A stretch of 56,621 bases of DNA, from the NCBI GenBank assembly GCA_944325935.1, contig CALVCF010000026.1:1-56621 (forward strand), read 5' to 3'. A model generated the notes under the pieces. The model worked only from the letters and a program-made list of their open reading frames with translations, was not told where the DNA came from and did no database searches. Source of the stretch: an uncultured Erysipelotrichaceae bacterium. Its GTDB lineage: Bacteria; Bacillota_I; Bacilli_A; Erysipelotrichales; Erysipelotrichaceae. The translations under genes and the position numbers were made by a program. This document shows positions 44,509 to 50,178 of the stretch, piece after piece (the stretch's first letter is position 1; each line of letters starts with the position of its first letter).

Positions 44509-46771
44509 TAGCGATCGTAAAGCTTTAGAATTCGATCTTGTCTTAGCGCGGGTTTGCGAATACGCTACTTTTGAGCTTGCGAAAAAGGCGATCTTAGAAG
44601 AGGAAGTCGACTTTAATCCCTTAGTCATTAAAAGAAAACTGGCTCTTTCCAAAGAGGCTGAACAGATCATTTTAAAACACGGACGGGTCGATCTAAGTGA
44701 TATCAAGGATATTAGGCCCTTGTTGGACACTCTTAATAAGGGCTTGTCTTTAACAAGTCGTGAGCTATTGTCGGTGCTTGATCATAATGCCCATATCAAA
44801 AGGATCACACGCTTTTTTCGCGATATTGAAGACTTAGAATATCTCGAAGATTTTTTACAAGATCTCTTTTATGATGAGACGATCATGCAAAGGATCAGCC
44901 AATGCATTGATCAAAATGCCAAGATCTTAGACAGCGCCAGTTCACGTTTGAAAGAATTGAGACGTGCCTTAAATAAATGTGAGAAGGATCTAAGCGATAC
45001 CGCCCAGGATTTTATGCGCAGAAACGCCAACAGTCTGCAAGAGACTGTGGTCTACTTGAGACATGATCGCTATTGTTTTTTGGTCAAGAATAGCGATAAG
45101 AACAAATTTGATGGGTTTTTTCATGGCGAGAGTTCATCGGGTCTGGCGAATTATGTTGAACCAAAAGTTCTGATTATTCTCAACAATCTTAAAAGTGAGC
45201 TGGAAGAGAAGATACACGATGAAGAAAGCGCGATCCTGTTGGAGCTTTCACAGCTGGTCTTAAGCCAAGCCGATCATTTTTACAACAATCTCGATTCTTT
45301 AATCGAGCTAGAAAAGGCTTTAGCTAAGGCAGATTACGGTCTTAAAAACGAAGGCGTCCTGGCAAAGCTTCAAGAAGATCTCGACTTAGAGGAAATCGCT
45401 CATCCCCTGATCGATCCAAAGAAGGTGGTCCGCAATAGTTATCATCTTCAAAAGCCTATCAAGGGCATCGTCATCTCCGGTTCGAATACTGGCGGGAAGA
45501 CCGTCTCTTTAAAGATCATCGGTCTAAGCGTTCTTTTGACTTATTTAGGCATCCCTCTGTTAGCTAAAAGGGCAAGCGTTCCGTTATATTCAAAGGTCCT
45601 GGTTGATATCGATGAAGAACAATCGATTATCGACTCTCTAAGTACTTTTTCGGCAAGGCTCAATAAACTTAAAGAAATCCTCAAAGATTTATCCAAGGAT
45701 AGTCTTTTATTGATTGATGAGATCGCCTCTGGGACCGATCCTAAGGAAGGGGAAGCGCTGGCTTTGGCGATTATCGACTATCTTGAAAAAAAGGATTGCC
45801 ATTTTATCATCACGACGCATTTCTCAAGGGTCAAGGAACATGCCTTAGCTTCACGTGTATTGATGATTGCATCCCAGGCTTTTGATCTTGAAAAGATGCG
45901 TCCGACCTATAAATATCTGGAAAATACGATCGGTTATTCCAATGCCTTAGACATTGCCCAAAATTATCTCAACAATGATGAGATCATAGCTAAGGCCCGC
46001 CTGTATTATTTAGAAAATGCAGACGAGGCGACAAGATCGCTCAAAGCTTTAGAAGAAAAAGAAAGCGAATTAGTTCAAAAAGAAAAAGAACTAGCCGATT
46101 TAAAAGCGGAGCTTTTAAGGTCTAAAGAGACTTACGAAGAACAGGTTGCAGAACTTGCCAAAAACAAAGAAGAACTCTTAAAACAGGCCCAAAGTGAATA
46201 TATAAGTTATGTAAATAAACAAAAAGCCCGCTTAGGCAATCTCATTAAGAAAGCTGAAGATAATAGGGAAAGTCTTTTAACTATTCAAAAACAGCTACAA
46301 AAAGAAGAAGCAGAACCTTTAAAAGAAGAACATGATTTCAAGGTCGGTGAAAAAGCTCGGATTCTTTCGACTAAACAAGTGGGAACGATCATTGCGATCA
46401 AAAAAGATACAGCAAGACTTGATGTCAATGGGATCAATTTGACGACCAGCTTAAGCGATCTTGAATATGTCGCTCATGTGGAAACAGCTAAAGTACGCAA
46501 GGTGCATAGCGAAAGAAGTTTTAAGCGCGTCAAACGCGATCTCAATCTCATCGGTCTTCATGTTGATGAAGCTTTGGAACTTGTGGCTAATTTTCTGGAT
46601 GAAGCTTATGGCCATAATATGAAACAGGTCAAGATCATCCATGGCGTTGGGACACTGGCTTTAAAAAAAGCAGTCGAACAATATTTAAAAAATGCTAAGA
46701 TCGTTAAGAGTTTTAAAACAGCAGAACACTATGACGGCGGTAGTGGCGCGACGATCGTGGAGCTAAAATGA
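44501..46771 (+). CDS. mutS2: Endonuclease MutS2
   Basis: 756 residues. MutS-type clamp and ATPase with Walker A SGSNTGGKTVS, Walker B LLIDEIASGTDP and THFSRVKEHAL; a coiled-coil linker (about 500-600) and a C-terminal Smr nuclease domain (about 680-756, LNLIGLHVDEALE, IIHGVGTLALKKAV). Resolves recombination intermediates and splits collided ribosomes. Coupled to cvpA and uvrC. Confidence 0.97.
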   Translation: MNNSDRKALEFDLVLARVCEYATFELAKKAILEEEVDFNPLVIKRKLALSKEAEQIILKHGRVDLSDIKDIRPLLDTLNKGLSLTSRELLSVLDHNAHIKRITRFFRDIEDLEYLEDFLQDLFYDETIMQRISQCIDQNAKILDSASSRLKELRRALNKCEKDLSDTAQDFMRRNANSLQETVVYLRHDRYCFLVKNSDKNKFDGFFHGESSSGLANYVEPKVLIILNNLKSELEEKIHDEESAILLELSQLVLSQADHFYNNLDSLIELEKALAKADYGLKNEGVLAKLQEDLDLEEIAHPLIDPKKVVRNSYHLQKPIKGIVISGSNTGGKTVSLKIIGLSVLLTYLGIPLLAKRASVPLYSKVLVDIDEEQSIIDSLSTFSARLNKLKEILKDLSKDSLLLIDEIASGTDPKEGEALALAIIDYLEKKDCHFIITTHFSRVKEHALASRVLMIASQAFDLEKMRPTYKYLENTIGYSNALDIAQNYLNNDEIIAKARLYYLENADEATRSLKALEEKESELVQKEKELADLKAELLRSKETYEEQVAELAKNKEELLKQAQSEYISYVNKQKARLGNLIKKAEDNRESLLTIQKQLQKEEAEPLKEEHDFKVGEKARILSTKQVGTIIAIKKDTARLDVNGINLTTSLSDLEYVAHVETAKVRKVHSERSFKRVKRDLNLIGLHVDEALELVANFLDEAYGHNMKQVKIIHGVGTLALKKAVEQYLKNAKIVKSFKTAEHYDGGSGATIVELK

Positions 46772-48546
46772 ACAAAGAGTTAAAAGCGAAACTTTCGACC
46801 TTGCCTCTTAAGCCCGGTTGCTATCTCATGAAAGATAAAAAGGGGAAGATCATCTATGTCGGTAAGGCCATTAAGTTAAAAAACCGCGTCAATTCTTATT
46901 TTCGGGGTGCTCATGATTTTAAGACGACGAAATTGGTCTCAAATATCGCCGATTTTGATTATATCGTCACCGCGTCCGAAAAAGAAGCCTTGATTCTTGA
47001 ATATAATCTCATTAAGGAATATGATCCTGAATACAATATCATCTTTAAAGATGACAAGTCTTATCCTTATATTCTTTTAAGCGATGACAATATCCCATAT
47101 TGTCGTTTACTGCGCCTTAAAAAGAAAAATAAGTACCGCGGCAAGATCTTTGGACCTTATCCTGATGTCGGAGCGGCCAATAATACGATCAAGCTCATCA
47201 ACAAATTGTTTAAGACGCGGAAATGTCAAAATCTGCCTAAAGAGCTTTGTCTTTATTATCATTTAGATCAGTGCCTAGGTTATTGCGCTAAGGATGTCGA
47301 TGTCAGGGAAATGCAAAAGATCAAAGATGACATCGAGCGTTTTTTAAAAGGAGACAACGCCTTTATTATCGCGCGTTTAAAAGACGAAATGCATCAAGCC
47401 AGTGAGGAGTTGCGCTTTGAAGAAGCGCAAGAGTATCGCGACCTTATTATGGATGTTGAATATGTTACTCAGGCCAAACAAAATGTCGAAGGGCGCCGCA
47501 AGGAAGATTTTGATGTATTCAATTATTATGTCGAAGATAATTATATTTCGATCGTCGGTCTTTTTATACGCAGTGGCCGGCTTTTGGCCAGCGATGTACA
47601 TATCGATCATCTCTATGATGACCCCAAAGAAGAATTCGTCTCTTATCTGTATCAATTCTATCAGCATAATCTTTTGCCTAAATTCCTCGTTTTAGATAAA
47701 GAACACGATCTTTCGATGATCCAGGAAAGCTTGGGGATTAAGGTTGAATACTTTAGCCGAGGCTTCAAATACCAAATGTTACAAAAGGCCAAAGTAAATG
47801 CTCAAACTAACTTGAGTCAAAATAAGCAGATCATTAAAAAGGACGAACAATATCTAGAGATCATTGCCAAAGAATTTCAAAAATATATAGGCTTTGTCCC
47901 TGATAGGATCGAGCTTTTTGATAACTCGCACCTTGGCGGAGAGCTCACCTGTGCAGCTATGGTCGTTTACGAAAAACTGAAACCTAATAAAAAGGAATAC
48001 CGGCTTTATCGTTTAGATGACAGTTATGACGATCTAAAATCGATGGAAGAGGTTTTATACAGGCGTTATTTTCGGGTTTTGAACGACGGCCTCAAATGTC
48101 CTGATCTCATTTTGATCGACGGCGGGGAGAACCAGCTGAAAGTGGCCCTTGATATTCTGACGCAGCTTGACTTAAAGATCAGGGTCATCGGCCTTAAAAA
48201 GGACGAACATCACTCTACCTCGATCTTATTAGATGAAAATCTTAATCCGATCAAGACCGATCATCGATCAAGTCTTTTTCTATACCTTGCTTCCTTGCAA
48301 GATGAGGTCCATCGCTTCGCGATCACCTATAATCGCAAATTGCGGAAAAAGAAGACTTACGCCTCAAAACTTGACGATATAAAAGGCCTGGGTAAAAAAA
48401 GAAGGGTAGCTCTTTTACGGAAGTATCATTCTATTTCTAATCTTCAAAAACAATCGCTTGCAGAATTGTGTACGGTTTTGCCAAAGGGTGTCGCCGAATT
48501 GTTGTATAATAAACTACACGAGGTAAAACATGTTGACGAGCGTTAA
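46768..48546 (+). CDS. uvrC: Excinuclease ABC subunit C
   Basis: 592 residues. GIY-YIG domain (PGCYLMKDKKGKIIYVGKA), UVR motif (LRFEEAQEYRDLI), RNase-H-like endonuclease (FDNSHLGGELTCAAMVVYE, LILIDGGENQLK) and C-terminal helix-hairpin-helix (IKGLGKKRRVALL). Makes both incisions in nucleotide excision repair. Starts within the mutS2 stop (ATGA). Confidence 0.98.
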   Translation: MNKELKAKLSTLPLKPGCYLMKDKKGKIIYVGKAIKLKNRVNSYFRGAHDFKTTKLVSNIADFDYIVTASEKEALILEYNLIKEYDPEYNIIFKDDKSYPYILLSDDNIPYCRLLRLKKKNKYRGKIFGPYPDVGAANNTIKLINKLFKTRKCQNLPKELCLYYHLDQCLGYCAKDVDVREMQKIKDDIERFLKGDNAFIIARLKDEMHQASEELRFEEAQEYRDLIMDVEYVTQAKQNVEGRRKEDFDVFNYYVEDNYISIVGLFIRSGRLLASDVHIDHLYDDPKEEFVSYLYQFYQHNLLPKFLVLDKEHDLSMIQESLGIKVEYFSRGFKYQMLQKAKVNAQTNLSQNKQIIKKDEQYLEIIAKEFQKYIGFVPDRIELFDNSHLGGELTCAAMVVYEKLKPNKKEYRLYRLDDSYDDLKSMEEVLYRRYFRVLNDGLKCPDLILIDGGENQLKVALDILTQLDLKIRVIGLKKDEHHSTSILLDENLNPIKTDHRSSLFLYLASLQDEVHRFAITYNRKLRKKKTYASKLDDIKGLGKKRRVALLRKYHSISNLQKQSLAELCTVLPKGVAELLYNKLHEVKHVDER

Positions 48547-48688
48547 TGATTATTTATCCCTAGCCGTACTTATTGTCTTATGTATTTTTTCTTTACGGGT
48601 GTTTATCGCTTCTTTGCGGGGCTTTAAGACGCCTTTAGAAAAGAAAAAACAGACGGTTTTTGACTATCCCGAAAACGAAGATGAATAA
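48530..48688 (+). CDS. 52-residue small membrane protein after uvrC
   Basis: ATG 48530 to TAA 48688, overlapping the uvrC 3' end by 17 nt in another frame. GAGG sits 6 nt upstream, a proper ribosome site. One hydrophobic segment (about 9-29, YLSLAVLIVLCIFSLRVFIA) followed by a basic then acidic cytoplasmic tail (KKKQTVFDYPENEDE). No family recognised. Likely real because of its site, coupling and composition. Confidence 0.65.
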   Translation: MLTSVNDYLSLAVLIVLCIFSLRVFIASLRGFKTPLEKKKQTVFDYPENEDE

Positions 48689-48714: not shown

Positions 48715-48743
48715 TTGGGAAAAGGATCGATTTGTGCTAATAA
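48715..48743 (+). promoter_or_regulatory. Promoter of the ComK-like gene
   Basis: TTGGGA (48715-48720), 17 bp, TAATAA (48738-48743); ATG follows after 6 nt. Confidence 0.6.
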
Positions 48744-48749
48744 TAAGGT

Positions 48750-49175
48750 ATGGAAGCTATTTACTATGCTTATCAAAAAGATGGGCAGCTGTATTTAGGT
48801 CTTAAAGATGAGACGCTAGTTTTGCCTACGACTCTGTATCAGTATTTCAGCCAAAGAGCTCTCGAATTCGGCTCAAGTATTCAAGGGCGTCTTGATGCGG
48901 TCGCCTACATTACAGGTCACAAGCATAAACCGCCGCTCATTATTTCCAATGGTGCCAGGGAGTATTATTTATGTACGCGGTCTTTAAAGGCGGCGGATTG
49001 CCTCTTAATCAATTTCGGCCTACTTAATAAGATTAAAGGTTGCCCCCATGGAAGCATCATCTTCTTTGAAGGCGGAAAGACTCTGAATACATTTGTCGAC
49101 AAAAGAATCTGGAATCGTCAAAGACGTCTTTTACAAGAATATTTTAGCTTTTATTCCTTGCAAAAGATGCTATAA
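48750..49175 (+). CDS. comK: ComK-like competence transcription factor
   Basis: 141 residues, shorter than Bacillus ComK (192). The block from F40 to I66 aligns without gaps to the ComK I recall: FGSS-x2-GR (40-47), a Thr at 55, HKPP (59-62), then Cys84 in the position of the C-W-I segment and FEGGKTL (106-112) matching the F-x-NGKT strand. ComK binds AT-boxes as a dimer of dimers and switches on DNA uptake genes. Both N- and C-terminal tails are short. No Shine-Dalgarno; the -10 ends 6 nt before the ATG. It stands alone before rmuC. Confidence 0.78.
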   Translation: MEAIYYAYQKDGQLYLGLKDETLVLPTTLYQYFSQRALEFGSSIQGRLDAVAYITGHKHKPPLIISNGAREYYLCTRSLKAADCLLINFGLLNKIKGCPHGSIIFFEGGKTLNTFVDKRIWNRQRRLLQEYFSFYSLQKML

Positions 49176-49185: not shown

Positions 49186-50178
49186 ATGTCTAACGAAGAG
49201 CTTTTCTTGATTTTCTTCTTTGTCTTGTTGCTGGCATTTTTGGTTTTGATCTTGCTGGTCCTGCATCAAAATCGCTTATTTGCAAGATTAAGTCAACACA
49301 ATGACTATTTTAAGCTTAGCCAAGCAAATGAACTGGATCGCCTCAAAGAAAAACTCACTAACGATTACGACGATCAAAAGAAAATTACTAGCGCCGCTTT
49401 GGAGAAAATCGATCACCAAGTGGGCTATCTTTTGCGTTCCCAAGAAGAATTAAGGGAAATAGCAGATGATATCGTATCCCTAGAAAAAATCCTAAATGAC
49501 AAAAAGCTAAGAGGGGTCTTTGGCGAGATCGAACTCTATCATCTTTTGGAAATGGTCTATGGCCAGGATCAAAATTTCTATGCAAGACAATATCGTTTAA
49601 GCAATTCATTGATCGCTGATTGTGTCATCAAAATCGACCGGGAGCTTTTGGTGATCGATTCCAAATTTCCCCTTGAAAACTATCGGCGTTTTAATGACGA
49701 AGATTTAGATAAAAACCAGCGCGCTAAAGCTTGGAAAGAATTTAAAAATGATATATTCAAGCATTTAAAAGATATTAAGAATAAATATATCATCAGCGGA
49801 GAGACTCTCGATTTTGCCTTAATGTTTATCCCATCTTACACAATCTGCGATGAAATATATACCAAGTTTGACGACCTGGTTGAGTTCTCTTATCGTTTGG
49901 GAGTCTATATAGTTTCTCCTACTAGCCTTCTGGCTTTCTTAACAAGTTTCAAAAAGACCAGGATCCACTTAGAACAAGAACAAAATGCCAAGCAGATCTT
50001 AACACAGTTAGAATATCTCGCCCATGAATTTAATCACTACGAAGAGCGCTTTTTAAAACTCAAACAGGAATTTACGCATTTAGAGAGAGCTTTTGAGGAA
50101 TTAGATATTACAGGCAAGAAACTGGCAAAACGATTTCGACAGATCGAAAGGGGTGATTTGATTAATGAAAAAGTATAA
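49186..50178 (+). CDS. rmuC: RmuC-family DNA recombination protein
   Basis: 330 residues from ATG 49186; the open frame upstream lies in the ComK-like gene. One N-terminal membrane helix (LFLIFFFVLLLAFLVLILLVL), a coiled coil (about 30-105), then the RmuC nuclease-like domain: RGVFGEIELYHLLE, VIDSKFPLENYRRF, FALMFIPSYTICDEIY. Thought to limit inversions at repeats. No Shine-Dalgarno. Confidence 0.92.
   Translation: MSNEELFLIFFFVLLLAFLVLILLVLHQNRLFARLSQHNDYFKLSQANELDRLKEKLTNDYDDQKKITSAALEKIDHQVGYLLRSQEELREIADDIVSLEKILNDKKLRGVFGEIELYHLLEMVYGQDQNFYARQYRLSNSLIADCVIKIDRELLVIDSKFPLENYRRFNDEDLDKNQRAKAWKEFKNDIFKHLKDIKNKYIISGETLDFALMFIPSYTICDEIYTKFDDLVEFSYRLGVYIVSPTSLLAFLTSFKKTRIHLEQEQNAKQILTQLEYLAHEFNHYEERFLKLKQEFTHLERAFEELDITGKKLAKRFRQIERGDLINEKV

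Follow-up and report, generated by a model that had tools for sequence, protein, structure and literature searches.

The window, a stretch of 56,621 nucleotides of DNA from an uncultured Erysipelotrichaceae bacterium, carries a gene which, as judged from its profile match and motifs, encodes a genuine, short-tailed ComK, a short member of this family in a new setting, the competence regulon of an Erysipelotrichaceae genus. We consider it rather probable that this regulon is read by a SigH-type sigma factor with ComK as co-activator, similar to the situation in Staphylococcus aureus. The relevant features of the window are the following:

46,768 to 48,546, forward strand: uvrC, the upstream border of the conserved locus (TIGR00194 above cut-off; synteny)
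48,530 to 48,688, forward strand: conserved ORF of 52 amino acids between uvrC and comK (locus comparison)
48,715 to 48,720, forward strand: TTGGGA, the -35-like element common to the com promoters (genome pattern scan, table of 21 promoters)
48,739 to 48,745, forward strand: AATAATA, the -10-like element, separated from the -35 by an 18-nt spacer (genome pattern scan, table of 21 promoters)
48,750 to 49,175, forward strand: comK, encoding a ComK-family protein of 141 amino acids without C-terminal tail (Pfam PF06338, AlphaFold2, orthologs)
49,186 to 50,178, forward strand: rmuC, the downstream border (PF02646, E 8e-50; locus comparison)

The comK frame runs from an ATG to a stop codon, and its product matches the Pfam ComK profile (PF06338.17) with an E-value of 6.2e-9 and 36.2 bits at a cut-off of 22.3 bits, which is far beyond chance; no other family was matched in Pfam and none in NCBIfam. 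The family assignment of the preliminary description, which had been made by motif, is thereby confirmed by profile search. Its placement of the gene in an unusual lineage is supported as well, the Erysipelotrichaceae lying outside the classical Bacillales. The motifs FGSSIQGR (residues 40-47), HKPP (59-62) and FEGGKT (106-111) all lie within the ComK core and agree with the core motifs of the family, G-S-S-x2-G-R, K-P-P/K-x-P and F-x-x-G. The alignment to the core had been described as gap-free; residues 23-124 fall on profile positions 34-136, i.e., 102 residues on 103 positions, so that it is not quite so. A profile search found one ComK copy in the source genome (G000), a metagenome-assembled genome (MAG) whose 81 contigs add up to 1.36 Mb. 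Across the order ComK is present in 107 of 196 genomes, 103 of these within the Erysipelotrichaceae; an ortholog in one sister genome shares 67% identity, and all 19 relatives in alignment A4 match ComK in Pfam. For a phage origin, 50,697 phage records were compared and gave no match to the protein, and no PDB chain matched it by sequence.

The protein ends 17 residues past the conserved Q124, in line with the reduced tail noted before, and the ComK proteins of the Erysipelotrichaceae likewise end shortly past this glutamine, with short ends across alignment A4. In Bacillus subtilis, removal of 25-35 C-terminal residues of ComK abolishes comG induction, and the region contacting MecA is not conserved in other ComKs (PMC3536758). 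As the tail is required there for comG induction, the tail-less protein may act differently. MecA was found in 0 of 41 genomes of the order by a search that detected the positive controls B. subtilis and Lactococcus lactis. MecA/ClpCP control as in B. subtilis is thus unlikely, and the turnover of this ComK, judged by its short end and the missing adaptor, is likely controlled in another way. The search covered MecA, and for MecA the expectation of a degradation control unlike that of Bacillus holds.

The comK gene lies in a conserved locus. In the ComK-lacking sisters of the genus, G016, G022 and G172, identified by the search of the order, and G196, judged from its locus, rmuC directly follows the 52-aa ORF, so that comK is cleanly missing between uvrC and rmuC. 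These four genomes, like the rest of the genus, retain the comG operon; the loss or gain of comK left the DNA-uptake machinery in place. This pattern would also be expected if ComK were a repressor or modulator of its own regulon acting by negative feedback, like ComK2 of S. aureus under strong oxygen limitation, for which a role as repressor is reported (PMC12491500), and the absence of the tail, which in B. subtilis is required for activation by ComK (PMC3536758), points the same way. However, the studied members of the ComK family mostly activate com genes, and we regard a repressing ComK as improbable.

The 52-aa ORF has one hydrophobic segment and an acidic tail with the conserved end YDYP-x-NED and is found in the family between uvrC and either comK or rmuC. 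It was considered as a ComS-like partner of ComK, which is ruled out as genomes without comK retain the ORF at this position; it is thus a feature of the locus rather than of ComK. A further observation at this locus is an inverted repeat, TCCCG or TCCTG, N16, CGGGA or CAGGA, enclosing the comK -10 element and start codon in L055 (G168), L057 (G120) and L305 (G105), at the same place and with matched changes on both arms. It is absent in the window, in G156 and in G177 and is therefore not general.

Genes for DNA uptake, the presence of which had been named as a check, were found in the source genome: a comGABCDEFG operon followed by efp, comEA-comEC-holA, dprA at a contig edge, and the prepilin peptidase gene comC (Peptidase_A24, E 5e-5, slightly under the cut-off). 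ComEC reaches 16-18 bits with the Pfam Competence profile at a cut-off of 23 bits; comEC is recognizable in the source genome in a form diverged under this cut-off. ComEC was described as lost in the Erysipelotrichaceae in a survey of 2018 (PMC6299819), which may be explained by these low scores, and surveys relying on the Pfam Competence cut-off will call the Erysipelotrichaceae ComEC (L053:5089-6894) lost. In the genus the comE operon begins with a gene for a protein of 211 amino acids (L053:4019-4654), a counterpart of which is present in G168 (L156). The divergence of ComEC, together with the reduced genome sizes of 1.1-1.6 Mb and evidence that comes from MAGs only, could be taken to mean that comK and the com genes are relics that no longer serve transformation but, e.g., pilus functions. 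Yet the com reading frames of the source genome are open, the comG operon is maintained throughout the genus, and the geometry of the com promoters is conserved exactly to the base, leaving such a relic very improbable.

The com promoters share one architecture. In five genomes of the genus comK and comG follow TTGGGA-N18-WATAAWT or a close variant, and TTRGGA-N18-WATAAWT precedes comK, comG, comE, comC, comFA, dprA and a gene for an ArdC-like protein. The source genome was scanned with a degenerate form of the pattern and chosen stretches were then read. The scan gave 15 matches compared to 11 for the backward control, a total that barely exceeds the control, so that the evidence lies in which genes the matches precede. 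Seven of the 15 are promoter-like, directly upstream of a correctly oriented ORF, namely comG, comK, comE, comC, the ArdC-like gene and two surface-protein genes. Since the pattern was derived from comG, comK and the genome's own comE, only the remaining genes constitute independent tests; comC and the ArdC-like gene, which were not used in its definition, were recovered. The scan returned dprA, comK, comE and the ArdC-like gene in G156 and comFA, comE and comK in G168. By a rough estimate, about 0.002 chance matches per genome would fall within approximately 60 bases upstream of about six com operons. A letter-by-letter check of 21 promoters showed a spacer of 18 nt in each, with the GA of the -35 and the ATAA of the -10 invariant.

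At the window comK the -10-like element ends 4 nt before the ATG, an in-frame stop codon lies 6 nt upstream and no Shine-Dalgarno sequence is seen at the usual spacing. The gap of 4 nt is found in all six comK genes compared, and the leaderless promoter proposed in the preliminary description agrees well with this. For dprA, comFA, comC and the ArdC-like gene the start codon similarly follows 4-6 nt past the -10, and these genes are, like comK, taken to be leaderless, while the leaders of comG and comE measure 15-23 nt and contain Shine-Dalgarno sequences.

Promoters of the same type also stand before surface-protein genes (L082, L084, L152, L154), judged by eye as thioester-adhesin-like, WxL-like and WXG100-like, and the regulon may thus be wider than DNA uptake. 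The ArdC-like antirestriction protein (G000:C42:920, L085; L153:637-1431 in G156) matches ArdcN with an E-value of 3e-9, and its gene has a com-type promoter and a leaderless start; the protein could shield incoming single-stranded DNA during uptake.

Whether these promoters depend on ComK bears on the earlier suggestion of a ComK master regulator, for which paired AAAA-N5-TTTT boxes had been named as a check. Pairs 8, 18 or 31 bp apart with at most two mismatches occur in 27 of 68 comG upstream regions of ComK-containing genomes, to which the search was directed, compared to 24.4 +- 3.8 in shuffled sequences, i.e., they are no commoner at comG than in shuffles. A Bacillus-type ComK circuit in this lineage is not supported. 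In a rival reading ComK itself would read the shared element, with TTRGGA or the -10 region as ComK box and sigma-A as transcribing factor as in B. subtilis: within the genus the AATAAAT-type promoter tracks comK (5/5 genomes with comK, 0/4 without), and pattern matches exceed the controls mainly in ComK-containing genomes. However, in addition to the missing enrichment of the classical boxes, the comG upstream regions of the ComK-lacking sisters retain a TTAGGR-like -35 at the same 18-nt spacing and differ in the -10, which is TTATAYG-like, and in G006, which belongs to another genus and likewise lacks ComK, TTAGGA-N18-AATAAAG precedes comG and AAAGGA-N18-AATAATG precedes dprA. A ComK box of this kind therefore appears unlikely. 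Family-wide, a looser RGGW-N15-17 promoter was found at comG in 27 of 70 genomes with ComK (shuffles 5.1) and in 6 of 23 without (shuffles 1.1). The role of ComK as master regulator is doubtful, as sisters without comK have an intact comG operon with a related promoter and as a SigH-type sigma factor accounts better for the com promoter. As a separate observation, the comG upstream regions of the ComK-lacking sisters (L062, L063, L065) contain a hairpin, CCTCCTTAT..ATAAGGAGG, followed by Ts, which encloses the Shine-Dalgarno sequence of comGA and may control comG translation.

A SigH-like sigma factor is encoded in ComK-containing genomes at the canonical cysS-mrnC-rlmB-sigH-secE-nusG locus, which is complete in G000 and G120 and covered from cysS to sigH in G168 and G177. 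The ComK-lacking sisters have a diverged SigH-like gene elsewhere, in three of them adjoining the S10 ribosomal operon. Against the NCBIfam profile spore_sigH (TIGR02859) sigma factors scored 41.2 and 47.1 bits, far under the cut-off of 294.8, so that the naming as SigH relies on the locus and weak similarity; SigH-like factors of non-sporulating species are known to be highly divergent (PMC3364868). Sigma factor and -10 element change together between ComK-containing and ComK-lacking sisters, which fits a SigH-type reader of the promoter. Furthermore, S. aureus comG requires both SigH and ComK1 (PMC10182052), and com genes of Lactobacillus sakei are activated by SigH-like factors (PMC3364868).

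In the circuit that we favor, built from MAGs throughout, the SigH-type factor from the sigH locus would transcribe comK, comG, comE, comC, comFA, dprA and the ArdC-like gene. ComK would be translated from a leaderless mRNA belonging to this regulon, bind DNA and co-activate the genes in a feed-forward loop, similar to the joint action of SigH and ComK1 in S. aureus, and MecA control would not apply to it, MecA being absent; cells would presumably become competent by this route.

Predicted structures give a lead on the fold of ComK. AlphaFold2 models of the window protein and of a distant ComK reached pLDDT values of 95.2 and 96.1, and the best Foldseek matches of both were LytTR domains (window ComK: E 1.2e-3, probability 1.00; distant ComK: E 0.07). 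In VIA the top six entries were LytTR for both models, with Z 6.0-7.4 for the window ComK (next entry 3.2) and 6.2-7.7 for the distant ComK (next 4.8), all below 8; the LytTR matches of the two models, Z 6.0-7.7, extend over 78-95 residues. By sequence, Pfam LytTR (PF04397) did not match the window protein and matched one of 19 relatives at E 0.018, and hhalign of ComK against LytTR profiles gave probabilities of 2-7%, above most column shuffles, although 1 of 40 shuffles scored as high. In the titles and abstracts searched a kinship of ComK and LytTR was not found; the two words occur together in the text of five papers. The models make a LytTR-like fold of ComK a candidate. The wider proposal, that ComK belongs to the LytTR domains as a highly divergent member and that the tail-less Erysipelotrichaceae ComK acts within a SigH-type, largely leaderless regulon inducing an ArdC-like DNA shield, is speculative and we hold it to be doubtful. 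Were ComK a LytTR domain, competence and quorum control in Firmicutes would use one DNA-binding fold in its ComK branch and in its ComE/AgrA branch, and a LytTR-like fold would provide a structural handle on ComK.

No report of ComK-based competence in Erysipelotrichaceae was found in the literature searched. Natural transformation, if present, would open a way for genes to be transferred in a large gut lineage and could serve there as a genetic tool. Close sisters within the genus differ in the presence of comK, and promoter and sigma factor differ accordingly; they constitute a natural experiment in which one can ask what ComK contributes to a SigH-driven competence regulon.

Compared to known systems, B. 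subtilis ComK resembles the window ComK in Pfam family, in core motifs and in the DNA-uptake gene set of the genome; in contrast, the window ComK lacks the C-terminal tail with the MecA contact site and its lineage lacks MecA, is not enriched in paired AT-boxes at comG and uses a different type of promoter. LytTR DNA-binding domains, as in AgrA and ComE, are the best structural matches of the two predicted ComK models, whereas the window ComK has neither a Pfam LytTR match nor a receiver domain. To our knowledge, ComX/SigH of L. sakei and streptococci act without a described ComK. Their regulons resemble the present one in that late com promoters are likely read directly by a factor of the SigH family; the present regulon is set apart by the promoter TTRGGA-N18-WATAAWT and by several leaderless genes. 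ComK1 and SigH of S. aureus likewise combine a ComK-family protein with a SigH-type factor at the canonical locus, and the com genes of S. aureus are under both (PMC10182052); in the Erysipelotrichaceae the MecA family is absent, and comK itself has the shared promoter and a leaderless start.
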